NCBI GenBank assembly: GCA_947587485.1 | Contig: CANPXZ010000004.1 | Coordinates: 1 to 41,673, forward strand | Reading direction: 5' to 3' | Source: an uncultured Oscillospiraceae bacterium | GTDB taxonomy: Bacteria; Bacillota; Clostridia; Oscillospirales; Oscillospiraceae | Length of the DNA stretch: 41,673 nucleotides | In this document: piece after piece, positions 6,880-41,454 of the stretch | Position numbering within the stretch: the first letter of the stretch is position 1 | How the letters are laid out: each line of letters begins with the position of its first letter | The notes under the pieces: model-generated | Databases searched by the model: none | What the model was told of the DNA's origin: nothing | Seen by the model: only the letters and a program-made list of their open reading frames with translations | Made by a program: the position numbers and the translations under genes

Positions 6880-7881
6880 ATGCCAGAGATATCCGTGGTG
6901 ATGCCGGTATACAACGGCGCGCAGTATCTGCCGGAGGCGATAGAGAGCGTACTGGATCAGAGCTATGGGGACTTTGAGTATCTCATCGTGTGCGAGCACG
7001 GGAGCGACGAGGCGAGCATGGCGGTCGTGGAGGGGTACGCGGCGAAGGACGAGCGGATACGCCTGATACGAAACGAGCGGCGGCTGGGCATAGCGGCGTC
7101 GCTGAACGTGGGCCTGGCCGCGGCACAGGGCCGATACATTGCCCGGATGGACGGGGACGATGTGTCCGGCCGGCGGCGGTTCGAGGTACAGCGGCAGTTT
7201 CTGGAGAGCTATCCGGAGATAGGCGTGTGCGGGATACACCCCCGGGTGCTGTACCCGGCGGACAAGCCGGGGGATTTTCTGCTCGATTACGGAACCGATC
7301 CGGAGCAGATGGAGAGCGACCTGCTGTTCTTCATCCCCATGCGGCACCCGAGTGTGATGTTCCGTGGAGAGCTGACAAGGACGTGCGCCTATGACGAGAC
7401 GCTGGCGGGGGGAGAGGAATACAGCTTCTTCTACCGGATGAGTTTGCAGACGAAGCTGGGCAATATCCCTGATCCGACGCTGTTTTCCTACCGGCGCACG
7501 GGGGAGAACGCCTCCCGGGTATATCTGGCGCGGGACACCTTTATCCGGCGGGAGACGATGCGGGAGATCTTTCGTCAGCAGCTGGGGATGGAGTTTGAAA
7601 ACCGCCAGATGGACATACTAAATTTTTTGGGGAACACGGCGTACGACGATCTGAAGAAGGAGCAGTATCCGGCGGTGGTAGAGCAGCTGGAGCGACTGCT
7701 GGAGCAGATAGAGGAGCAGAACGAACGGAAGGGCGTATACCGGCCGGCATGTCTGCGCAAGACGCTGGAGCACCGATGGTTTCGGGAGAAGCGGCGGCTG
7801 CGTCTGATGATGAAGGGGCAGCTGACGGAGGCGGTGGAGAGGGCGTTGGCGGAGAGCCGGTATGCCAGCGTGTGGTTCTGA
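6880..7881 (+). CDS. Family 2 glycosyltransferase
   Basis: This is a 333-residue GT2 enzyme. MPEISVVMPVYNGAQYLPEA is the standard first strand and loop, RMDGDDVSGRRR near residue 90 carries the DxD, and GGEEYSFFYRM holds the acidic catalytic-base region. It transfers an unidentified sugar in the cytoplasm. The ATG at 6880 follows the previous stop almost directly. The frame is open further upstream but only inside the preceding gene. The GT2 domains at 4557 and 8569 share its R-L-x-x-N-E and LGIAASLN blocks, so these three probably descend from one ancestor. Confidence 0.82.
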   Translation: MPEISVVMPVYNGAQYLPEAIESVLDQSYGDFEYLIVCEHGSDEASMAVVEGYAAKDERIRLIRNERRLGIAASLNVGLAAAQGRYIARMDGDDVSGRRRFEVQRQFLESYPEIGVCGIHPRVLYPADKPGDFLLDYGTDPEQMESDLLFFIPMRHPSVMFRGELTRTCAYDETLAGGEEYSFFYRMSLQTKLGNIPDPTLFSYRRTGENASRVYLARDTFIRRETMREIFRQQLGMEFENRQMDILNFLGNTAYDDLKKEQYPAVVEQLERLLEQIEEQNERKGVYRPACLRKTLEHRWFREKRRLRLMMKGQLTEAVERALAESRYASVWF

Positions 7882-7894
7882 AGGAGAGGAAGAG

Positions 7895-8530
7895 ATGGAC
7901 AAGCAGGTGAGACGGCAGATCCGGGTGAAGAACTGGCGGCTATGGGCGCTGGCGGGGATAGCGATCCTGACGTTGGTATACACGTTCCTGCGGCAGGCGC
8001 CCATAGGGGAGAGGACGATAACCCTGACGGCGCGTGGAGAGCAGGAGAGCGTGGCGGACGGGAGCGAGATCTGGCTCCGGCGGGTGGAGATAGACGGAAA
8101 GGAATACGCGCCGGAGGAAGTGTTCACCGGCAAGTGGATCGAGGAAAAGGGATACTACGTCTGGCGTACATACGACCGGGTGGAGGGAATGACGGACAGC
8201 CTGACGGCCACATTCCCGGGGGACGCGGACGTGGATATGTACTTTGAGTCGAACCGGTGGCGGGGGATCCTGCGGGTGCAGGACGGGTGTATTCTGCCGC
8301 GGCTTTACAGGGTGAACTGCTACCGGGACACGGGCGCGGGGGACGAGCTTATCAGCTACAAGCAGACCAGAATGGCTCCCGGCATCCTCCGGGCCGCCAG
8401 ACTGCTGCTGTTCTACGCGACGGCCTGGATTCTCATTACGGAGATACGCCAGCGGGTTTTGAATAGAAGACGCATGCTTGAGCAAAAGACGGTGTCAAAA
8501 AAGCCGGTTCCAAGCGATCCGGACGTCTGA
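7895..8530 (+). CDS. Two-TM protein with extracytoplasmic module (shared module, copy A)
   Basis: This protein of 211 residues has one membrane helix at about 14-32, a roughly 130-residue outside segment and a second helix at about 165-184. A basic tail follows. I do not recognise a named family. The outside segment has the same landmarks as segments of the proteins at 12831, 14468 and 16236: ITLTARGE, an EIW strand, DGK, GKW, YVWR, a proline-led strand and a final D/Y turn. It is closest to the GT-C protein at 16236. The start at 7895 follows GGAGAGG. It sits between glycosyltransferases, so a role in export or decoration of the glycan is likely but unproved. Confidence 0.65.
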   Translation: MDKQVRRQIRVKNWRLWALAGIAILTLVYTFLRQAPIGERTITLTARGEQESVADGSEIWLRRVEIDGKEYAPEEVFTGKWIEEKGYYVWRTYDRVEGMTDSLTATFPGDADVDMYFESNRWRGILRVQDGCILPRLYRVNCYRDTGAGDELISYKQTRMAPGILRAARLLLFYATAWILITEIRQRVLNRRRMLEQKTVSKKPVPSDPDV

Positions 8531-11700: not shown

Positions 11701-12795
11701 GTGGGAATACGGATATGCGGAAAAATCAGCCCCGGAGCGATCGCGGGGGGGGGTAAACACGAAAGTTTCTTCCATCGGTTGGGAAAGCGCCTTTTCGCCG
11801 GCTTCGCAGACGAGCTCCGGGAGGAGATAAGGCAGGTTCTCCAGCGTGAGACGCAGGAATTGGAACGCAGCGTCGAGGCTTGGACCTGGGAGCGGTATCA
11901 GCGAACGGAGAAACTGGTGGAGAACTGGACCTGGGAGCGATACCAGCAAACGGAAAAGCTTCTGAAGGACACGATAGACCGCCGCCTGCAAAAGCTCATG
12001 CCGCTGCCGTCTCTGCGGACGCTGGATGTGCATATTGCGGAGCACTGCAATTTGAACTGTCAGTGCTGCGACAATTTCTCCCCCATCGCCGAGGAACAAT
12101 ACACAGACTATGACAGCCTGGCGCGGGATTTTGCCAGACTGCGTGAGCTGTCCCACGGGCAGGTGGGCACCATCTATCTGGACGGCGGCGAACCGCTGCT
12201 GCATCCGAGGATCGCCGATTTTGTCTCTCTTACGAGAGAGCATTTTGAAGAATCGGATATCTATGTGGTGACCAATGGGATACTGCTTGCTCAGATGCCG
12301 GAAGCGTTCTGGGAAAAATGCGCCTCCAACCATGCCGGAGTCCTGATCACGAAATATCCGATCCATCTGGATATGGAGACCATCGAGGCGAAAGCGGCAG
12401 AGCACGGTGTCGTCTGGCGGTTTTACGATGAAAGCGCGGATTATAAGGAAAAAACCACCACATTCATGCCTTTGGATATGCATGGCGGCCACGAAAGCTA
12501 CCAGAATTTTGTGAACTGCTATCACGCGAATTACTGCATCTACCTCTGGGAGGGGCGGATCTATACCTGTTCAGTAGCCGCGAGCATTCGGCATTTCAAC
12601 CGGTTCTTCCACGAGGATCTGCCGGACGTGCCGGAAAATTCCATCAGCATCTATGAAGCGAAGGATATGGACGAGATCCTGCGGTTTTTATGCCGGCCCA
12701 TCCCGCTGTGTGAATACTGCGATATCCCCGGCCGAACCTTTGATATCCCCTGGGGGATATCCAAACAGGAAAAGAGCGAGTGGGCGCATGTATGA
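11701..12795 (+). CDS. Radical SAM protein, N-terminus behind a poly-G switch
   Basis: The frame encodes a radical SAM enzyme with the cluster motif C116-x3-C120-x2-C123 (AEHCNLNCQCCD) and later cysteines (NCYHANYC, YTCSVA, LCEYCDIPG) that could hold an auxiliary cluster. The substrate is unknown. Two W-T-W-E-R-Y-Q-x-T-E repeats lie at residues 61 and 76. The natural start should be the ATG at 11697, which overlaps the preceding stop, but with nine G at 11745-11753 that frame stops at once (TAA 11754-11756). Only with 8 or 11 G does it join this frame. As written, the protein needs the GTG at 11701, a weaker start in the wrong phase for the ATGA coupling. Confidence 0.75.
   Translation: MGIRICGKISPGAIAGGGKHESFFHRLGKRLFAGFADELREEIRQVLQRETQELERSVEAWTWERYQRTEKLVENWTWERYQQTEKLLKDTIDRRLQKLMPLPSLRTLDVHIAEHCNLNCQCCDNFSPIAEEQYTDYDSLARDFARLRELSHGQVGTIYLDGGEPLLHPRIADFVSLTREHFEESDIYVVTNGILLAQMPEAFWEKCASNHAGVLITKYPIHLDMETIEAKAAEHGVVWRFYDESADYKEKTTTFMPLDMHGGHESYQNFVNCYHANYCIYLWEGRIYTCSVAASIRHFNRFFHEDLPDVPENSISIYEAKDMDEILRFLCRPIPLCEYCDIPGRTFDIPWGISKQEKSEWAHV
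11745..11753 (+). repeat. Poly-G tract (G9) in the 5' end of the radical SAM gene
   Basis: Nine G follow codon 16 of the frame that starts at the ATG at 11697. With G9 the frame ends GGG-TAA. With G8 it reads RGGGKHESFFHRLG and runs through the whole radical SAM gene. This is the layout of a slipped-strand translational switch. Confidence 0.8.
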
Positions 12796-12830: not shown

Positions 12831-13385
12831 ATGAATACATCGGATAGAGCATGGGGGAAGGCTGCGCTGAAGCGCATGCTGCCCAGTTTGGTAACAGCGC
12901 TGGCTGCGGCGGCCGTCTTGTTCGCTGCTTTTTCCGTATGCCTGAGGACGAATCTTGCGGAGCCGACGTATATGGCGATCTCTTCCCTGGCAGAGGATCA
13001 GCCTGTCACCTTCCGGGGCGCGACAGTAGATGGAAAATGGCTGAATCCTTCCGATATGCTGGTGTCGGCAGGGAGCTGGGTCGAGGATCCAGAGCAGAGG
13101 GTTTATACCTCCTCAGACGAGACTCCGCTGCGGCTGGAGCTGCCGCCGGGACAGGAGCGCACCCTGGCCTTCAATTCCGGCCCGGACGAGGGCGCGGTGC
13201 TGGTAGAGTTTGACGAGGATCAGCTGGAATTTGACCTGTACAGCGACGCCGTCGCTGAGCTGGGGTCGAATTACCAGGTGCCCGCCGCGCTTCCCCACGG
13301 GCTGCCGTTTTATATTTTCTTCCTAATAGCCGCGCTGCTGTTCGGCATGTTCGCGCTCATCCCCGACAGAAGTGCGGGGGGGTAA
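12831..13385 (+). CDS. Extracytoplasmic module with two TMs (copy B), front half of a split acyltransferase
   Basis: This is a 184-residue product: membrane helix at about 17-37, outside module at about 40-155, second helix at about 157-177, then SAGG and a stop right after a G7 tract. The outside part is clearly paralogous to residues 45-150 of the protein at 14468 (V-T-F-R-G-A-T-V versus V-T-Y-R-G-A-M-V, NSGPDEGAVLVE versus NYGPDEGVAVVE). That protein continues into an acyltransferase-3 domain, so this gene should too. One extra G at 13376-13382 joins it in frame to the acyltransferase at 13445, giving about 528 residues. The ATG at 12831 follows GGAGG. Confidence 0.75.
   Translation: MNTSDRAWGKAALKRMLPSLVTALAAAAVLFAAFSVCLRTNLAEPTYMAISSLAEDQPVTFRGATVDGKWLNPSDMLVSAGSWVEDPEQRVYTSSDETPLRLELPPGQERTLAFNSGPDEGAVLVEFDEDQLEFDLYSDAVAELGSNYQVPAALPHGLPFYIFFLIAALLFGMFALIPDRSAGG
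13376..13382 (+). repeat. Poly-G tract (G7) splitting module B from its acyltransferase domain
   Basis: Seven G are followed by TAA in the upstream frame. With eight G the frame reads SAGGVRLPEERDVSGDLLRG and then runs into the acyltransferase. The break lies just before the catalytic R-x10-H motif. Confidence 0.8.
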
Positions 13386-13444
13386 GACTTCCTGAAGAAC
13401 GGGACGTTTCCGGCGACCTGCTCCGGGGCGTATGCTGTTTCACG

Positions 13445-14416
13445 GTGGTGCTACTGCACTGCACGTGTAACTGCCTTGACAGCTATGGCCCACCGCTCTC
13501 TGCCTGGTATCCCCACCTTATCATGAACAGCCTTACGGCCTTTGCCGTACCTGCATTTTATATGCTCTCCGGGGCATATTTGCTGGGCAAGCCCCAGCCC
13601 GTCCGGAACACGCTGTCTAGAAGGGTGCCGCGCCTGTTGATCCCGCTGGTATTTTGGAGTGTATTCTACATTATATTCAGCGGCGATATCCGGCCACAGA
13701 AGTTTTTAGAAATGTTTTTCCAGCCGCAGACGCCCCATTTGTGGTTTATGTACTGCATTCTGGGGATCTATTTTCTCCTTCCGCTGTTATCCAGACTCTA
13801 CGTGGCTTTGGGGACAAAGGAGAAAATATACCTGCTCATGCTGCTGCTTGTGGTTCCGTCGCTGCTGCATGACACGGAATATATCGTAAACCGCTATGTG
13901 CAGATGCCGTATTTTGCAGTGTTCTGGCCGGATCTAGGGCTGTTTTGCCTGGGGGCGTTTCTGCGGGAACACAGCGAACAACTGAAAAGATATAAAAATT
14001 GGATGCCCGCGGCATTCATTTTAGGACTGGTGCTTACCGCCGGACTGACGCTGTATGTCAGCGCACGTGATAATGCTCTGAACAAAAACTTTATCAGCTG
14101 CATCGGAAGCGTTGGCGTCCTGCTTATGGCGGCGTCGCCTCTGATATGGGCTTGGGGCAACGAGGAAGCACTGAAGAAGCTTCCAAACTGGACAAAAAAG
14201 CTGATCCATGGGCTCGGACAGACGTCGATGGGCGTGTACCTGATCCACGTATTGGTGATGCAGATGCTTAACCGCTCTGCACTCCCGTGGCTGCCGCTGT
14301 ACAGTAACGAGGGATCGATGCTCCAGATGTGCTTCAGCGCCGTCGGATACTTTGCCATAAGCGCGGTCATCTGCTGGTGCGGAGAAAAAACGCCGCTGGC
14401 GAGAAAAGTGATATAA
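13445..14416 (+). CDS. Acyltransferase-3 family membrane protein, back half of a split gene
   Basis: About 323 hydrophobic residues match the acyltransferase-3 family (OatA/WecH-like), which acylates sugars at the membrane. The first in-frame start candidate as written is the GTG at 13445, which begins VVLLHCTCN and lacks the arginine of the R-x10-H motif. Reading back across 13383-13444 in the same frame gives DLLRGVCCFTVVLLH, the complete motif. The frame joins to the gene at 12831 if the G tract at 13376 has 8 or 11 bases. Later features (FWSVFYIIFSGD, HLWFMYCILGIYFLLPLL) are typical of the family. On its own this half probably gives no functional enzyme. Confidence 0.78.
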   Translation: MVLLHCTCNCLDSYGPPLSAWYPHLIMNSLTAFAVPAFYMLSGAYLLGKPQPVRNTLSRRVPRLLIPLVFWSVFYIIFSGDIRPQKFLEMFFQPQTPHLWFMYCILGIYFLLPLLSRLYVALGTKEKIYLLMLLLVVPSLLHDTEYIVNRYVQMPYFAVFWPDLGLFCLGAFLREHSEQLKRYKNWMPAAFILGLVLTAGLTLYVSARDNALNKNFISCIGSVGVLLMAASPLIWAWGNEEALKKLPNWTKKLIHGLGQTSMGVYLIHVLVMQMLNRSALPWLPLYSNEGSMLQMCFSAVGYFAISAVICWCGEKTPLARKVI

Positions 14417-14467: not shown

Positions 14468-16090
14468 ATGAAGCGTGTTAGGAAGAAAGGTGATCGTCGG
14501 ACGCGGATCGTGCTGAACAACAGGATTGTCGCGGCTTTTGCAGTGGTCATTCTATGTCTGTCCTGCGTGCTGGCGGCGGTTGTTATCCGAAGACCTATCC
14601 GAGTACTGGTCACGGTGCAGGAAGGTTCTGGTTCGGTGACCTACCGAGGAGCGATGGTGAGCGACAGTTGGTGCAATCCGCCAGCCGGATTATCTCCAGA
14701 TGGCTCCTGGATTTTTGATTCCAAGACGTCTACATATACCGCCGCAAGTTATCTGCCTTTAGAGATCGAATTGCCGGCAGGAGAGGAATGTGCTCTTGTT
14801 TTCAATTACGGTCCGGACGAGGGCGTTGCGGTCGTAGAGGCGCGGGGCGAGCGGTTTGAATTTAATCTGTACAACAATACAGTTGTGGAGTATGGAAAAT
14901 CATTCCAAATTCCGGGCGTGGAGCCGATGGATCGTTCGTATTACGCTCTTCCTTTGGTCATCTTGGCGGTTCTTATCGCTCTTATGGGATATGTCTATGC
15001 AGGAAACGACATGCAGAGGAAGACCCGCAGCCGGGGGATTGAAATATACAGGTTTTTGTTTTCCCTGGTGATCATGCTGCACCATATCGGTTGGCAGTTC
15101 AGTTTTAATTTGTTCAGCGCCGGATATCTGGCGGTAGACATGTTTTTTATTGTCAGCGGATATTTCCTTGCGGCGCATTACGAGCGGAAGACCGTGGAGG
15201 GTAGGGGGGTATTAGGGCCGGAAGAAAGTGCCCTGCAATACGCGGCCGGGCGGTGGAAACGGATGTTTTTCCACCACAGCTGGGCGTTCCTTGTGGCGGC
15301 TTTTTCTTCGGTCGTGCTGCTGAAAAACGCCGGTTGGAAGCAGATCCTGTTTGATAACTGGCTGGAGTTTCTCATGTTGGAAGAGACCGGCCTTGGAAAT
15401 GAAGCGGTTATAAATGGCGTGGGTTGGTATTGCAGTGCATTGTTCCTGGCTTCTTTCCTGGTGTATTATTCCCTGTGCAGGAACAAAAAAGCACATGTGT
15501 GCGTGATTATGCCGATCACCGCTGTGCTGGCATTTTCCTACTTTTATAGATATGGGGATCTGAACCGATACCTACAAAATCCGCTGATGATCTGCGATGG
15601 GGCGATCCGGGGATTTGTAGAATTGTCGATGGGCTGTGCATGCTATTATGCAGTCGTGAGGATAAAAGGAGGCCAGTACAGATTTGTGCAGCAGCGTTTG
15701 GAACCGTGGATGTACGGTCTGACGGAGACATTGTGCTTTGGTGCGCTGATGTACATCATGTGGAAACCTGGCGGGTATAAGCCGGGATGGTTTGTGTCCC
15801 AGGACTTTATGGCCATACCAATAATGGTACTGCTTGTGATTGTAGTGTTGTCGGAGAAAAGTATCCTTCATAAGCTTTGGGATAATAGTCTGTCCGCTTT
15901 CCTCGGAAAGCTCAGTTTTTCTATCTTCTTAAATCATACAGTGATTCTTGGCCTGCTCACAAAATTCATGATCGGCAGACCGGTGCCGATGATCCTGTCG
16001 ATCTATCTTGGCACAACGATCGGATATTCTGTTTTGACGATGCTGGTGATCGACGCGCTGGAGAATGTCGTTTTTAGGAAGAGAATCTGA
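14468..16090 (+). CDS. Extracytoplasmic module (copy C) fused to acyltransferase-3 domain
   Basis: This 540-residue membrane protein is the intact version of the architecture split at 12831/13445. Helix at about 19-41, outside module at about 45-150, helix at about 159-177, then an acyltransferase-3 domain from about 188 with R195-x10-H206 (YRFLFSLVIMLHH) and FFIVSGYFLAAHYERK. It likely transfers an acyl group, such as acetyl, onto the surface glycan, with the module held outside near the acceptor. That role for the module is inference. The start ATG at 14468 follows TTGGAGAA. The stop is followed by a 145-base gap. Confidence 0.8.
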   Translation: MKRVRKKGDRRTRIVLNNRIVAAFAVVILCLSCVLAAVVIRRPIRVLVTVQEGSGSVTYRGAMVSDSWCNPPAGLSPDGSWIFDSKTSTYTAASYLPLEIELPAGEECALVFNYGPDEGVAVVEARGERFEFNLYNNTVVEYGKSFQIPGVEPMDRSYYALPLVILAVLIALMGYVYAGNDMQRKTRSRGIEIYRFLFSLVIMLHHIGWQFSFNLFSAGYLAVDMFFIVSGYFLAAHYERKTVEGRGVLGPEESALQYAAGRWKRMFFHHSWAFLVAAFSSVVLLKNAGWKQILFDNWLEFLMLEETGLGNEAVINGVGWYCSALFLASFLVYYSLCRNKKAHVCVIMPITAVLAFSYFYRYGDLNRYLQNPLMICDGAIRGFVELSMGCACYYAVVRIKGGQYRFVQQRLEPWMYGLTETLCFGALMYIMWKPGGYKPGWFVSQDFMAIPIMVLLVIVVLSEKSILHKLWDNSLSAFLGKLSFSIFLNHTVILGLLTKFMIGRPVPMILSIYLGTTIGYSVLTMLVIDALENVVFRKRI

Positions 16091-16235: not shown

Positions 16236-18347
16236 ATGATACTTAAAACAGACTTAGTGCTCAAGATCTTCATGACCTTTGCAACCGTTTTGATTGGGTA
16301 TTTCGTGCTGCGAAAAAAGCTGACTGTTGGACAACTTTTGATCTTTTGCCTGTCTGTCGCCATATTTGCGCTGGCAGCAGATCGCATATCCAAAATAATT
16401 CCGCCGCTGCGGGATAAAATAGTCATCACTGCGCTGGGGGAAAAGAACGAGGCAGCGCAGGCAGACGAGCTGTGGTTTTCCGGCTATACGGTAGACAGCG
16501 AAGTGTTTGAAAATGGAACATCCCTGCAGATCCGTGATGGGAAATGGTTCTGGAGCGGAGAAACGTATGTCTGGAGGAATGAACTGGATCCGCGTCAACC
16601 GGCGGGAACGACTCGGACGATTACAGTCGGTATCCCGGTCGGTTTGCATAGGTCGTTGAACTTCACGATGAACCCGTGGGGAGGAAAGGCTGAAATTGCG
16701 GATAGTCAGGGAAGCGAAGTATATGATTTTTATTCTGAAAAAGAAAGAACAGTAAGTATATCAATCTGTGAAAGTGAAACATCTCTGTTGATTTGGAATT
16801 GGATTCTCCATCTGGCAGTATACGCGATTGTTTTTTTAATATTGTCATATATTACAGCTGCGCTGATTATCCGTCTCAAGCGCGATTCGGTTTGGAGAGA
16901 AAAGCACAGTGGCAAACTGATTTACGGTGGCATTGCGGTATGGGCCTTTGTTCTGATGGCGACGTATGCGGGCAATACGCCGTTCTGGCAGGATGAGTTG
17001 TGGCAGATAACCGGAACCAGTGGGACGATTAAGGAGGCGATCCAGTACTGTCTGGAGGTGCGCGAGGCATCCCCTCCGCTGCCGTTCATTATTTCGACGA
17101 TTTGGTACCATATAGCGCCGTATGGGGAGCAGTGGCTCCTTATGGTATCGACTGTCCCGGTGACGATCGCTGTCTATGCCATGGGGTTGGCGGGCGAACG
17201 GGTCGGAGGCAGGCTGTTTGGGATACTGTCTGTAATCTTTATGGTGACGGTACCGACGTTGTGGGGCAACGTGGCCTATGAATACAGAGCTTATGCGTTC
17301 ATGGTAATGTTCTCAACGCTGACATTGTACAGCTACATCTACCGGAATCAGAATCCAACGTCAAAAAAAGCGAGTGTTTTGTTTGGACTTTCTATGACCG
17401 GCCTGGCAATGAGCCACTACTATGGTATGATAGCGTGCGTCTGTTATTTTGTGGCGGACTGTTTCCTAGTATATTACAAACAGCGATCCTGGAAGGAAGT
17501 GTTCACTTATTTTCTTCCAGGAGGCGTGAGTCTCATATGGCTCGTTCTAGTCGTGATCACTGTAGTCCGGGTCGGGGGAATGCAAGGAGAAGTTGCTTGG
17601 CAACCAGTTCCTTCGGTGGCGCTGGTCAAGGATGTGTTTGATTTTATTACAGGGTATTTCACTTTTGCTTGCTGGGTTTTGTTTGCGGGTGTTGCTGCAT
17701 CGCTGGTGGTCGCTTTTCGGCTTCGGAAAGAAACGTTTACATGGCAGCGGTTTTATGTATCTTTCTGTGGTCTTGCATTTCTCGGAACGATTACAGTGAT
17801 GTACATCTATGGCAATATCAATACAAAACACACGATGTGGCTCAGCAGGTATTTTTTCTTTTTATTACCACAATCCTGTTTTTTGTCAACATGGATAGTG
17901 GGAAAAGGCGCCGAGCTTCTTGGCCGGCAGGAAGAACAGACGGTGCTTATCCAGAAAACGGTATGTCTCTTTATTGCCGTAATCATGGGATTCAACTGTT
18001 GGAGTTATGGCATTAGGGCGCAGTTCATGTTGGAGCCTAATAAAGATGCTGCTGATTGGATATATACACAGATCAATACGATCTTCCTGGATGACACGGT
18101 GATTTTGGCGCCTAAGCATGTGGATGTAGGTTGGGAGAAGTATTACATTGAACGGCAGGGGCGCAGAGATCCGCTACATGTTGTCTGCCAGGCTGATATT
18201 GAAAAAGAAGAACTGCTGGCGTATGATACGGTGTTTACAATTACCCCGCTTCGTGAAGAACTGCAGAGAACCCTGGATGAAATGTATACTCTGGAGGTCG
18301 ATAATACAACGGCAGCAGCAAAACTTTATGTGAGGAATACAGATTAA
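16236..18347 (+). CDS. GT-C glycosyltransferase (ArnT/PMT-like) with inserted extracytoplasmic module (copy D)
   Basis: This is a 703-residue multi-membrane protein. Two helices (about 9-25 and 31-48) are followed by an outside module at about 58-182 related to the small protein at 7895 (ITALGEKNE, DELW, GKWFWSGETYVWR, DFYSEKE). From about 186 a GT-C core follows, with PFWQDELWQ putting D253/E254 in the first catalytic loop, and PPLPFIISTIWYHIAP like other GT39/GT83 enzymes. Such enzymes move a sugar from a polyprenyl phosphate carrier to an acceptor outside the membrane. The polyprenyl sugar probably comes from GT2 enzymes such as 18383. A run of seven A at 17363-17369 lies within the intact frame. 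Confidence 0.78.
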   Translation: MILKTDLVLKIFMTFATVLIGYFVLRKKLTVGQLLIFCLSVAIFALAADRISKIIPPLRDKIVITALGEKNEAAQADELWFSGYTVDSEVFENGTSLQIRDGKWFWSGETYVWRNELDPRQPAGTTRTITVGIPVGLHRSLNFTMNPWGGKAEIADSQGSEVYDFYSEKERTVSISICESETSLLIWNWILHLAVYAIVFLILSYITAALIIRLKRDSVWREKHSGKLIYGGIAVWAFVLMATYAGNTPFWQDELWQITGTSGTIKEAIQYCLEVREASPPLPFIISTIWYHIAPYGEQWLLMVSTVPVTIAVYAMGLAGERVGGRLFGILSVIFMVTVPTLWGNVAYEYRAYAFMVMFSTLTLYSYIYRNQNPTSKKASVLFGLSMTGLAMSHYYGMIACVCYFVADCFLVYYKQRSWKEVFTYFLPGGVSLIWLVLVVITVVRVGGMQGEVAWQPVPSVALVKDVFDFITGYFTFACWVLFAGVAASLVVAFRLRKETFTWQRFYVSFCGLAFLGTITVMYIYGNINTKHTMWLSRYFFFLLPQSCFLSTWIVGKGAELLGRQEEQTVLIQKTVCLFIAVIMGFNCWSYGIRAQFMLEPNKDAADWIYTQINTIFLDDTVILAPKHVDVGWEKYYIERQGRRDPLHVVCQADIEKEELLAYDTVFTITPLREELQRTLDEMYTLEVDNTTAAAKLYVRNTD

Positions 18348-19171: not shown

Positions 19172-20173
19172 ATGGAACAAACGGCAAAGATCTATGTGGC
19201 TGGACATACAGGGTTGTTTGGTTCAGCGCTTGTTCGCGCACTGGAGAAAAGAGGATTTGCAAATATAGTTACGCGCACCCATGCCGATCTTGATTTGACA
19301 GACGGCGCCGACACAATGGCCTTCTTTAAAACGGAAAGGCCGGATTATGTTTTTGTGGCAGCGGCTAAAGTGGGGGGCATTCAGGCAAATAATCTGTATA
19401 TGGCGGATTTTGCCATGGAGAATTTGCTTATTACCTGTAATGTGCTGCGCGCCGCCCACGAGGTGGGAGTGAAAAAACTTCTTTATCTTGGCTCTTCCTG
19501 TATTTACCCGAGAGAAGCAGATCAGCCAGTGAAGGAGGAGTATTTACTGACTGGTTTGCCGGAACCTACAAATGAAGGCTATGCCGTCGCAAAGATCGCA
19601 GGCGTGCGGATGTGCGATTACTATAAGCGGCAGTATAATGACGATTTTATAAGCTGCATACCTGCTAACGTATACGGGGAAAATGATAACTTTGATTCAC
19701 AGAACAGCCATGTGATACCGGCGCTGCTTCAGAGATTCCATCAGGCAAAGAAGGAACGGGCACCTTATATTGAGATATGGGGCACGGGCAGCGCAGAACG
19801 GGAATTCATGTATATTGATGATGGCGCCGATGCATGCCTCTATGTTATGGAGCACTATAATGGACCGAGGACTATCAATATTGGAATGGGCCGCACAACT
19901 TCGATCCGTGAACTTGCTGAGCAGATTCGCAAGGTAGTCGGATATGAAGGAGAGATCCGTTACGACACTACCAAACCGGATGGCATGCCGCGCAGGCTGC
20001 TGGAGAGCAGCAAGATCACAAATCTGGGCTGGGCGCCGCGTATCGAATTGGCGGACGGATTGGAGAAAACATACCGTTGGTATTTGAATAAGCTTGCGGA
20101 TAAAGAGGATCGCGTCAGAAAGGAGATCGACATGAATAAGGACGATAAGGTTTTTGTGGGGGGGTTGGAGTAG
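19172..20173 (+). CDS. GDP-L-fucose synthase-like SDR (epimerase/reductase)
   Basis: This SDR of the GDP-fucose synthase family (Fcl/ColC/MlghC-like) carries out C3/C5 epimerisation and/or C4 reduction of a GDP-4-keto-6-deoxy sugar. VAGHTGLFGSALV near residues 9-21 is the cofactor loop, GSSCIYPREA is the family signature, and YAVAK is the catalytic YxxxK. It is 333 residues as read. The true C-terminus is probably earlier, since the last 14 residues (MNKDDKVFVGGLE) are the start of the next gene, which has its own AAGGAG site. The frame then stops after a G7 tract. With one more G the two SDRs would be read as one continuous protein. Confidence 0.82.
   Translation: MEQTAKIYVAGHTGLFGSALVRALEKRGFANIVTRTHADLDLTDGADTMAFFKTERPDYVFVAAAKVGGIQANNLYMADFAMENLLITCNVLRAAHEVGVKKLLYLGSSCIYPREADQPVKEEYLLTGLPEPTNEGYAVAKIAGVRMCDYYKRQYNDDFISCIPANVYGENDNFDSQNSHVIPALLQRFHQAKKERAPYIEIWGTGSAEREFMYIDDGADACLYVMEHYNGPRTINIGMGRTTSIRELAEQIRKVVGYEGEIRYDTTKPDGMPRRLLESSKITNLGWAPRIELADGLEKTYRWYLNKLADKEDRVRKEIDMNKDDKVFVGGLE
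20158..20164 (+). repeat. Poly-G tract (G7) inside the cofactor loop of the second SDR
   Basis: Seven G encode part of the glycine-rich NAD(P) loop. With G7 the frame from the ATG at 20132 ends at TAG 20171-20173. With G8 or G11 it continues as ...VAGTAIVRLLQKNGYIN into the gene at 20188. G11 gives the same loop spacing as the paralogue at 19172. Confidence 0.8.
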
Positions 20174-20187
20174 CAGGTACTGCAATT

Positions 20188-21063
20188 GTGCGATTGTTAC
20201 AAAAAAACGGCTATATTAACATTTTGGCTCCAACTCATAGGGAGTTGGATCTGGGTTCCAGCGAACAGGTGAGCCGCTTCTTTCATGATAACAGACCGCA
20301 GTATGTGTTTTATACGGCGGCCAAGATGGGTGGCATCACTTACCGGAACGCACACCCCGCAGAGCTTTTGCTGGAGAATCTGCAAATGCAGGTCAACGTG
20401 ATCCAATATGCACATGAGTATGGCGTAAAGCGTTTGCAGTTTATGAGCAGTGACTTCATTTATCCAGAGAAGACAGCAGACGGCACATTGCGGGAGGAAG
20501 ACTTTTTGAACGGTCTTCCCAGCAGAAGAGATTTTCCATACAGTTTGGCAAAGATCGTTGGGGTAAAGTTGTGTGACTATTATCGTGAAGAATATGGCGA
20601 CAGTTTTTTTACAGTCGTACCTTGTGCGTTTTTTGGTATAGACTCGTCATTTGATGTTGAACGGGCAAATGTGGTGGCGTCATTGATGAGACGAATGCAC
20701 GAAGCTAAGGAATCTGGCACGCGGGAATTTGTCTTATGGGGCACAGGGAAACCGGTCAAGGAATTCCTATTCAGTGACGATTTGGCTTCAGCCTGTGTTC
20801 TGCTGATGGAGCAGGATGCATGTGAGGGGCTTTACAATATTGGCTCGGGTTCTGGCGGCATTTCCATTATGTCGCTGGCAGAGAGCATCAGAGAAGTAGT
20901 TGGGTATAAAGGCAGAATCGTCTGTGATCCATCTATGCCGGATGGCGTCCCCCGCAGAGTTCCGGACTCTACGCGCTTGCGGTCGCTGGGATGGAGACCG
21001 TTATACGATCTACAAACGGCACTCCAGTTGACGTACGATCATTTTATTAAGTCATGCGCGTGA
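20188..21063 (+). CDS. Second GDP-fucose synthase-like SDR, N-terminus cut off by a G7 frameshift
   Basis: As written the frame starts at GTG 20188 and yields 291 residues without the cofactor loop. The intended start is the ATG at 20132 (AAGGAG six bases before it) and the intended N-terminus MNKDDKVFVGG, which is out of frame by one base at the G7 tract. The remainder is a good SDR: TAAKMGGITYRN, SSDFIYPEK, YSLAK as YxxxK, and WGTGKPVKEFLFSDD. It parallels the gene at 19172 and probably makes a different stereoisomer. In the sequence as given the enzyme should be inactive. Confidence 0.78.
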   Translation: MRLLQKNGYINILAPTHRELDLGSSEQVSRFFHDNRPQYVFYTAAKMGGITYRNAHPAELLLENLQMQVNVIQYAHEYGVKRLQFMSSDFIYPEKTADGTLREEDFLNGLPSRRDFPYSLAKIVGVKLCDYYREEYGDSFFTVVPCAFFGIDSSFDVERANVVASLMRRMHEAKESGTREFVLWGTGKPVKEFLFSDDLASACVLLMEQDACEGLYNIGSGSGGISIMSLAESIREVVGYKGRIVCDPSMPDGVPRRVPDSTRLRSLGWRPLYDLQTALQLTYDHFIKSCA

Positions 21064-35010: not shown

Positions 35011-35991
35011 ATGAAAAAAGCGGTAGTGACCGGCGCCAGCGGTTTTATCGGTAAGGCGCTGGTGAGAGAGCTTCTGAATCAGGGATGGACGGTCTGGGCG
35101 GTGGTGCGCAGCCCGAATAAGCTGGCGGATCTGGCCCAAGAGCGGCTCATGTGCGTCCGCGCGGAGCTGACAGAGTACGCAGCGCTGCCGGAGCGGATCT
35201 GTGAGCGTGGCTTTGACGCGTTTTTCCATCTGGCATGGGACGGGACGTTTGGCGTCAGCTTCCGGGACTACCATCGCCAGCTGCACAACGCTGCCTATGC
35301 GGCGGACGCGCTGACGGCGGCGGTCGAGTTGGACGCGAAGAGGTTCATTTTCACCGGCACCATCGTGGAACTGGAAGCGAAGCACTATATGATAACGGAC
35401 GGCGGTGCGCCGAGAACGTCCTGTATTTATGGTACGGCCAAAGCGGCGGCGGAGATGATCTGCCGTACGGTGGCCTATGAAAAGCGTCTGCCTATGAATA
35501 CGGCCATATTGGCCAGCGTATACGGGGACGGCGACGAGTCCGGCATGATCCAGAACGTGCTGATTCGTGCCCTGCAAAAGGGCGAGAGCCCCAAGCTGGT
35601 GAGCGGGGAAAACCTGTACGACTGGATCTATGTGGAGGATGTGGTGCGAGGTCTGATCTCCATCGCGGAGCAGGGGGCGGTGGACAAGACGTATTATGTC
35701 GGCCACCGGCAGTTGCAGACGTTCGAGTCTCTTGTGACCCGGACAAGGGATGTGGTGGCGCCGGAGGTTCCCCTGGCCTTTGGGACGCTGGAGGATCGGA
35801 CGGTGACGGACTACACGCTGATAGACCGGGAGGCCCTGTATCGGGACACCGGATTTGAATGTCAGGCCGATTTTGACGAGAGTATCAGAAAAACGGCGAA
35901 TTGGCTCAAAGCCAGAGATAAGGAGGAACACGAGAATATGAATGACAGAAGTACTGTGGTGAATAACCCCACGGGGGGGGGTAAGTTGTAA
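35011..35991 (+). CDS. SDR 4-ketoreductase-like (first copy), reads into a poly-G leader
   Basis: This extended SDR has VVTGASGFIGKALVREL, FHLAWDGTFG, YGTAKAAAEM as YxxxK, and DWIYVEDVVRG. It likely reduces the 4-keto group of the dideoxy sugar. Homology to the paralogue at 36621 ends around WLKARDKEE. The last 17 or so residues come from a second translation unit that begins at ATG 35938 in the same frame and includes a G9 tract. The real end of the enzyme is therefore uncertain. It follows the epimerase by five bases. Confidence 0.8.
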   Translation: MKKAVVTGASGFIGKALVRELLNQGWTVWAVVRSPNKLADLAQERLMCVRAELTEYAALPERICERGFDAFFHLAWDGTFGVSFRDYHRQLHNAAYAADALTAAVELDAKRFIFTGTIVELEAKHYMITDGGAPRTSCIYGTAKAAAEMICRTVAYEKRLPMNTAILASVYGDGDESGMIQNVLIRALQKGESPKLVSGENLYDWIYVEDVVRGLISIAEQGAVDKTYYVGHRQLQTFESLVTRTRDVVAPEVPLAFGTLEDRTVTDYTLIDREALYRDTGFECQADFDESIRKTANWLKARDKEEHENMNDRSTVVNNPTGGGKL

Positions 35992-39648: not shown

Positions 39649-40229
39649 AGAAGATCCTTGTGACAGGGGAGCGGACTTTATCGGCTCCAACCTTGTTCAC
39701 TATGGCTGGAGACCAAGTTGGATGTGGAGTTGCTGGTGAATATCATCCGCTGCTCTAACAACTACGGGTACTATCAGTCTCCAGAAAAGCTGGTTCCCCT
39801 GATGATCCACAGTGCCCTGGAGGACAAGCCCCTGCTGGTCTACAAAGGCGGGATGCAGATCCGGGACTGACTGCATAAGTACAACCACTGTGTGGCCATC
39901 TGAACCGCGCAGGAAAAGGAAGCGCCGAGGGAAATCTACAACGTGGGTGGCAACCACGAGAAGGCAAATCTGCAGATTGCCGGCTGATCCTGCAGGAGTT
40001 GAGTAAGTTGAAGAGCCTGATCACCCATATCGCGAACCGGCCGGGCCATGACTACCGGTACGCCATCGACAATGCCAAAATCTCCACCCAGCTGGGATGG
40101 AAGCCAGCCTATACGTTTAAGGCGGGCATCATCCAGACCGTCTGCTAATATGTGGGCAGCTGGGAGTGGACAGAGCGGATCACCTCCGGGGCCTATCGCG
40201 GATACTATGAAAAGATGTATGCCCAGAAT
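39645..40229 (+). pseudogene. rmlB: Ruined dTDP-glucose 4,6-dehydratase (rmlB)
   Basis: A start MKKILVTG overlapping the rmlA stop is followed, after a one-base shift, by [12 protein letters not shown], the N-terminus of RmlB. The middle of the gene is missing. From about 39720 the C-terminal third is recognisable: [43 protein letters not shown] and YYEKMYA. Stops at about 39870, 39903 and 40147 and further shifts show decay. The dTDP-4-keto-6-deoxyglucose needed by the upstream genes must therefore come from another rmlB elsewhere in the genome. Confidence 0.85.
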
Positions 40230-40250
40230 GCCGGATACAGCGCTGGAGAG

Positions 40251-40289
40251 GGCGTCCGGCCGCCGGGAAACGGCGGCCGGACGCCTTTT
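40251..40289 (+). terminator. Rho-independent terminator of the cluster
   Basis: A perfect 14-base stem (40251-40264 with 40272-40285), loop GGGAAAC, followed by TTTT. It stands just after the rmlB remnant and is the only strong terminator seen in the window, so the cluster transcript probably ends here. Confidence 0.85.
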
Positions 40290-40581
40290 CGCTAGCCAGC
40301 GGGGACATACTGGGCAGAATAGCTAAAACTTACCAGGAGTTTGCCTGAAAAACGTTTTTCTCTGAGGGACAGAATCGACTGACTTCCCATTTTGCCTTTT
40401 TGCCTTTTGGTATAATGATATCACAAAGGATGCCTCCTTTAACATTAGTTTTCATTCATAAAGTTCTATTCTGTATCTTGTGCACTCCGCAACAGATCAG
40501 TCCATGCCCTGAGCAGATTGAATGGTGGCAATCATCAGAAGATTGCCATTGATCTCGGCAAAGTTCAGCATATAGCCAGCG
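40290..40581 (+). other. Intergenic stretch with weak promoter and relics
   Basis: The stretch holds no intact gene. TATAAT at 40411-40416 with TGG directly before it is an extended -10 box, but no good -35 lies at proper distance. From about 40500 the minus strand has a short protein-like frame (MLNFAEINGNLLMIATIQSA...) that ends at 40497. This looks like the end of a deleted gene. Confidence 0.4.
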
Positions 40582-41454
40582 TTGAAAGTTCTGCTCTCTG
40601 AGATAGAAGAACATCCTGTCCGCCTGTTCACTTGCTTTGGATACCGATATGCCGCCGCAAAGGAGTACGGCGTCAGCAAATTTGTCTATGTACCACTCTG
40701 GCAATCTCTCGGAGCGCTGAAAAATAAACTCTATCGTCTCAAGGTGAAAGAGCCCACATATACGGATGAGTTCGTAATGTCCTGGAACGCTTTTCTTGCC
40801 AGTGCTTCCGCAGTTGGCGAGATCGTACCGGCAAAATATGAAAAGGATAAATGCACCGTGATTGGGCACACCGGCGGCACGACAGGCACTCCTAAAGGCG
40901 TCATGTTAAGTGATTACGCTTTCAACTCTATCCCTACGCAGGAGAAGTGGGGCTTTCATTATCTGCCCCATGAGAAACATATGGATATGGTCGTCCCGTT
41001 TGCGGTCTATGGCTTGTCCAACAATCTGCATATTGCCCTGTCGATTGGGATGAACGTGATTTTGATCCCCAAAGTTGCCCCCGAGAAAACGGATGAACTC
41101 TTACAAAAATATAAGCCAAATCACATCACCAGCATCCCGAACTACTGGACGGCCATCCCTCGGAGCAAGCGGCTGAAAGATGAGCTGGCCGGTCTGGCGG
41201 ATGCGCTGGCGGCGGGCCGAGACATCCGGTTCAGCGAGAGCCTTGCCAAGCACGCCGACTGGGCGGAGGAACTGAATACACGGTATATCTTCATGGCGGA
41301 GAATGCGCTGGATATCCTGAAGGACGGGTGGGCCAGGGGTTCTTCCAGGTTCTGGAGTATGCCGGGGTATATAAGCGCACCCTCGAGGAAAAGGCAGCAT
41401 TTTTGCAGTTCACGGATAGCGTGCGATAAGTCCGGGCCGGACGGTGGTTTTTAA
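40582..41454 (+). pseudogene. Chimeric relic: AMP-dependent acyl-CoA ligase fragment joined to an unknown fragment
   Basis: Residues 1-190 of this frame are the middle of an AMP-binding ligase: HTGGTTGTPKGVML (residues 96-109) is the A3 ATP motif, and VAPEKTDELLQKYKPNHI and PNYWTAIP follow. The N-terminal third and the whole C-terminal part of a normal ligase are missing. From about residue 200 (LADALAAGRDIRFSES, MAENALDILKDGWA) the sequence no longer resembles the family. A one-base shift near 41340 would continue it as FFQVLEYAGVYKRTLEEKAA, ending at 41428. Two broken genes therefore seem joined here, beside the IS end. Confidence 0.65.

Follow-up and report, generated by a model that had tools for sequence, protein, structure and literature searches.

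A membrane acyltransferase gene of an uncultured Oscillospiraceae bacterium is broken at a run of seven G residues. The break probably reflects phase variation by slipped-strand mispairing at poly-G; the enzyme would be a surface-glycan acyltransferase, and the assembled sequence captures its putative OFF state. The gene (12831–14416) lies within the window, the 41,673-nucleotide stretch of DNA analyzed here, which is contig C4 of a single fragmented, MAG-like assembly (2.54 Mb; 201 contigs; 74% complete). This assembly encodes a citrate synthase 97–98% identical to homologues in rabbit-gut MAGs labelled uncultured Oscillospiraceae.

The window is a surface-polysaccharide cluster, with genes for glycosyltransferases, NDP-sugar epimerases and dehydratases, radical-SAM proteins, and acyltransferases. 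Judged from its sequence, the product of the split gene probably decorates the cell's sugar coat. If the proposed switch is real, the bacterium could add or omit one acyl decoration of that coat, which would probably affect how phages adsorb and how the host recognizes the cell. (The 3′ end of the window, 39660–41450, holds remnants of dTDP-sugar dehydratase-like and CapK/adenylate-ligase-like genes with in-frame stops; these are ordinary pseudogenes.)

Frames, junction, and motif of the split gene

The upstream open reading frame (12831–13385, forward strand) begins with an ATG preceded by a strong Shine-Dalgarno sequence, AAAGGAGG, and encodes an N-terminal module: a transmembrane (TM) helix, a predicted β-sandwich, and a second TM helix. 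The structure was modelled with moderate confidence (pLDDT 61) as one long helix, nine strands, and one helix. The fold has no PDB match at E≤0.001, and the TM–β-sandwich–TM module has no Pfam family. The frame ends GCG GGG GGG TAA at 13385; the G7 tract (13376–13382, forward strand) is preceded by C and followed directly by the stop codon.

The downstream frame (13259–14416, forward strand) is offset by one base and encodes the AT3 domain (Acyl_transf_3, PF01757). It is free of stop codons from 13259 to 14413, with the PF01757 match starting near 13415. The first TM helix (TM1) of AT3 proteins carries the motif R/K-x10-H (PMC9558356); here, it reads R GVCCFTVVLL H (13424–13459, forward strand; R at 13424, H at 13457) in the AT3-domain frame.

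These two frames might be two genuine genes, a stand-alone module followed by an AT3 gene that starts with GTG 13445, and a related stand-alone module does occur in the cluster (a 222-residue protein, 7862–8530; 25% identity, E 6e-5). But this GTG, the first in the AT3 frame, lies inside the R-x10-H motif, so that initiation there would lose the R, and it has no Shine-Dalgarno sequence. Further upstream, the AT3 frame contains no ATG, GTG, or TTG (scanned from 13259), and CTG 13418 has no ribosome site. When the frame is read from the tract onward, the PF01757 score climbs by 19 bits, from 108.5 to 127.7 (cut-off, 31), and the match starts at profile position 5 instead of 16. The resulting full-domain match (profile positions 5–325 of 326) thus reaches upstream of GTG 13445. 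Finally, the neighboring protein encoded at 14468 is a single-frame fusion of module and AT3 domain. Two separate genes are an extremely improbable reading. The best explanation of the sequence is a single gene, 12831–14416, for a putative TM–β-sandwich–TM–AT3 membrane acyltransferase, an architecture supported both by the single-frame 14468 protein and by the absent AT3 start codon.

The position of the frame switch is narrowly bounded. Homology between the N-terminal module and the 14468 protein reaches approximately 13349, in the frame that is not the AT3 frame. Together with the upstream extension of the AT3 domain, this places the switch between about 13350 and 13385, an interval of about 36 bp with the G7 inside. 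A homopolymer therefore sits at the point of frame break, as slipped-strand mispairing requires. The original prediction had put the break at this tract, just ahead of the motif, and both points hold: TAA directly follows the tract; the frames are one base apart; the AT3 frame has no start before 13445; and R-x10-H lies 3′ of the G7, in the AT3 frame.

The junction G GGG GGG TAA could instead support a programmed −1 ribosomal frameshift, or transcriptional slippage, yielding the short module and the fusion in a fixed ratio. The heptamer permits perfect −1 re-pairing, and a stop codon comes next. However, downstream structure is at chance level (z 0.12 and 0.23), and tracts at homologous sites across the genus have neither the constant length nor the constant phase that a programmed shift would require. 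A programmed −1 frameshift was rejected on these features, and fixed-ratio decoding at this site is quite improbable.

Relatives of the split gene are sparse. Close relatives were absent from the named genomes searched; 34 congeners gave AT3-domain matches only (22–31%); and no other carrier of the N-terminal module was found among 300 genomes of the family. For the AT3 domain, no relative of known structure was found at E≤0.01.

The neighboring protein and the N-terminal module

The adjacent gene (14468–16090, forward strand) encodes an intact protein of the same architecture in a single frame, without a long G tract. It had been described as the intact twin of the split gene. The likeness extends to the architecture and to the N-terminal modules, which are 36% identical (E 5e-30), but not to the AT3 domains: although both match PF01757, they are not alignable as a pair (21% over 141 residues, E 0.23). 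On these comparisons, "mosaic partner" describes the 14468 protein better than "twin" does, and the modifications made by the two enzymes may be unrelated.

The module itself appears, from similarity searches, to be a lineage-specific element that recurs in the cluster, both alone and fused to AT3 domains: at 7862–8530, 12831–13385, 14468–14990, and 16236–16980. The last of these, the start of a membrane protein at 16236, is a weak link (E 3e-4) through a TM region only.

Poly-G tracts in the window and in the genome

In the proposed mechanism, the reading frame would depend on the length of a hypermutable poly-G tract, which replication slippage alters; the tract falls in the cytoplasmic linker that joins TM2 to AT3 TM1. 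At the assembled length, ribosomes would encounter the TAA directly past the G residues and make only the N-terminal module (OFF). Tract lengths in register would yield the full enzyme (ON), which would acylate an exported glycan. From the sequence, we infer that slippage at 13376–13382 takes place in living cells, that it is reversible, and that the enzyme transfers acyl groups.

Does the window contain an excess of such tracts? That idea was rejected: its genes contain four runs of at least seven G residues, compared with 3.57 in synonymous shuffles, and G7 counts equal those in dinucleotide shuffles as well. The position of frame breaks is another matter. Positions no more than 18 bp from a run of at least seven G residues account for only about 0.55% of the window. 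Yet the window has two discrete frame breaks in genes that are otherwise intact (13376 and 20158), and both fall on such runs; our own product of probabilities for two of two is about 3e-5.

The second break is in a GDP-L-fucose-synthase-like gene (20132–21063, forward strand) at a G7 (20158–20164). This gene has its own Shine-Dalgarno sequence (AAGGAG), and its first 11 codons (MNKDDKVFVGG) are out of frame with the remainder, which matches an NCBIfam profile (positions 20–304 of 308) 3′ of the tract. The epimerase gene immediately 5′ reads into it, stop-free in the assembled phase. Two G9 tracts also lie in the window, on the forward strand. At one (11745–11753), near the start of a radical-SAM gene whose start codon is uncertain, the ATG frame stops at the tract and the GTG frame reads through; the other (35973–35981) lies where an epimerase gene ends, ahead of the next gene.

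Elsewhere in the genome, a second AT3 gene (L032:1884–3021, reverse strand; contig C25) is broken by a G8 that comes straight after an R-x10-H motif, and the rest of its AT3 domain is in the other frame. (The interruption thus lies beside TM1 in each of the two AT3 genes of this genome seen to carry a tract.) A choline-kinase-family gene (L031:3079–4165, forward strand; contig C7) is broken by a G8 near its 3′ end; two congeners have tract-less relatives (L200 and L201) in which the counterparts of both halves lie side by side in a single frame. Other tracts are in frame within genes, for a short-chain dehydrogenase/reductase (SDR), a capsule-synthesis protein (PGA_cap), a glycosyltransferase, and a subtilase.

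The main rival to phase variation is a recent pseudogene, in which the acyltransferase was lost for good through an insertion or deletion in its G run. The decayed remnants at 39660–41450, the chance frequency of G7 runs, and the absence of length variation at 13376–13382 in the one assembly all accord with this. Yet both frames of the split gene are otherwise free of lesions (184 and 343 codons), in further genes of this genome, too, the break falls at a G run and not at some other position, and tract lengths across the genus follow a switching pattern. Permanent inactivation is an unlikely account.

A sequencing or assembly error, with a true tract length that keeps the acyltransferase in frame, also merits consideration: the sequence comes from one metagenome-type assembly, homopolymer indels are a classic error, and two window genes are affected. 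But G7 is short, and many G9 tracts, which are longer, stay in frame in the same assembly. Moreover, the differences between homologues obey frame logic over several assemblies. Such an error is improbable.

A tract-length switch is the best supported reading because other genes in the genome are broken at G runs and because homologues elsewhere in the genus have tracts of different lengths and frames. These same observations favor the on/off part of the earlier claim, which envisaged switching of one of two related acyl modifications; "related" fares less well, given AT3 domains that are only distant relatives. Counting against the switch, the G7 is shorter than the genus mode (G9–G10), which suggests that switching at this gene may be slow, and the window has no more G7 runs than chance predicts; an excess over composition appears only in the runs of at least 8–9 G residues of the genome and genus. 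Likewise, alleles in and out of frame are seen at other loci in the genus; the split gene is known from one allele.

Tracts across the genus, and known systems

The genus was represented by 35 genomes of uncultured Oscillospiraceae species. Together, they contain 235 occurrences of G9T but only 70 of the reversed control, TG9; single genomes reach a maximum of about 43 G9T, compared with 0–2 in most genomes of the order. Among four genomes, runs of at least eight G residues are strongly biased toward the coding strand (67:8, compared with 288:243 for G5 runs; p 1e-9) and toward gene ends and junctions (49:26, compared with 63:468; p 1e-22). Three of these four genome sets were obtained through G9T, so the bias in the following base was judged on the split gene's own genome only: T follows 17 of 19 tracts of at least eight G residues, as against 28 of 160 G5 runs (p 5e-10). 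Flanks of the long tracts are non-random throughout the genus, with C on the 5′ side and T(A/T) on the 3′ side (the window and L029–L038 in the genome studied here).

Tract length also varies between homologues. One congener (G033) encodes two FkbM-type methyltransferase paralogues (L143:5773 and L144:6507) with a tract at the same codon: G9, in frame, and G10, out of frame. Orthologues with nearly identical flanks likewise carry the tract pairs G9/G10 and G9/G11. Families of double-glycine leader peptides also carry poly-G, some copies in frame and others out (L167, L191, L155, L137, and L145–L147; congeners G027, G031, and G033). These peptides are small and RiPP-like, some with Cys-rich cores, and in L167 and L191 the tract falls at the GG cleavage site itself.

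Loss of the mismatch repair protein MutS was considered as the cause of tract instability and rejected: MutS was found in 32 of the 35 genomes, including that of the split gene. Its presence would lower slippage, and so counts against the switch.

These observations make it reasonably likely that this uncultured, apparently commensal Oscillospiraceae genus runs a multi-locus poly-G phase-variation repertoire, with up to about 40 tracts per genome and a shared C-G9/10-T(A/T) flank. Its targets would comprise capsule-type enzymes (including two AT3 enzymes), a protease, sensor and regulator genes, and double-glycine leaders in which the tract encodes the GG cleavage site. If so, tens of poly-G tracts reside in the surface and peptide genes of a non-pathogen gut genus.

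The mechanism, poly-G contingency loci together with phase-variable AT3 enzymes, is already known, mainly from pathogens. Salmonella oafB is switched epigenetically, and Haemophilus influenzae oafA by a longer repeat unit. On/off expression has been described for AT3 surface-glycan O-acetyltransferases, with H. influenzae oafA and Salmonella oafB as examples (PMC9558356), and the split gene probably encodes a further phase-variable AT3 enzyme. Here, in contrast, the repeat is poly-G and sits within the coding sequence, where an additional N-terminal TM–β–TM module joins the AT3 domain, and the organism belongs to a Clostridia genus.

The LicA-type choline kinase of H. influenzae is phase-variable through a tetranucleotide repeat near the 5′ end of its gene. 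The choline-kinase-family gene L031 similarly is broken at a repeat tract, but this tract is a G8 near the 3′ end, and the assignment of L031 extends only to the family.

No report of poly-G switching at multiple loci was found for Oscillospiraceae or related Clostridia in the non-subscription literature searched; within that literature, use of the mechanism at many loci by a non-pathogen genus of Clostridia seems not to have been described. A close parallel is Campylobacter jejuni, with 29 poly-G/poly-C contingency loci that have tracts of seven or more (PMC4965091). Both organisms carry many short, frame-switching poly-G tracts in surface-glycan genes, mostly of 8–11 residues. The Oscillospiraceae genus differs as an unrelated, GC-richer commensal that has kept MutS, strongly favors T after its tracts, and includes double-glycine leaders among its tract-bearing genes. 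In the gut commensal Bifidobacterium breve, replication slippage in poly-G tracts of 10–12 residues switches sortase pili (PMC9187656). There, one or two pilus loci per genome are involved, whereas the Oscillospiraceae genus carries tens of tracts in many gene classes.
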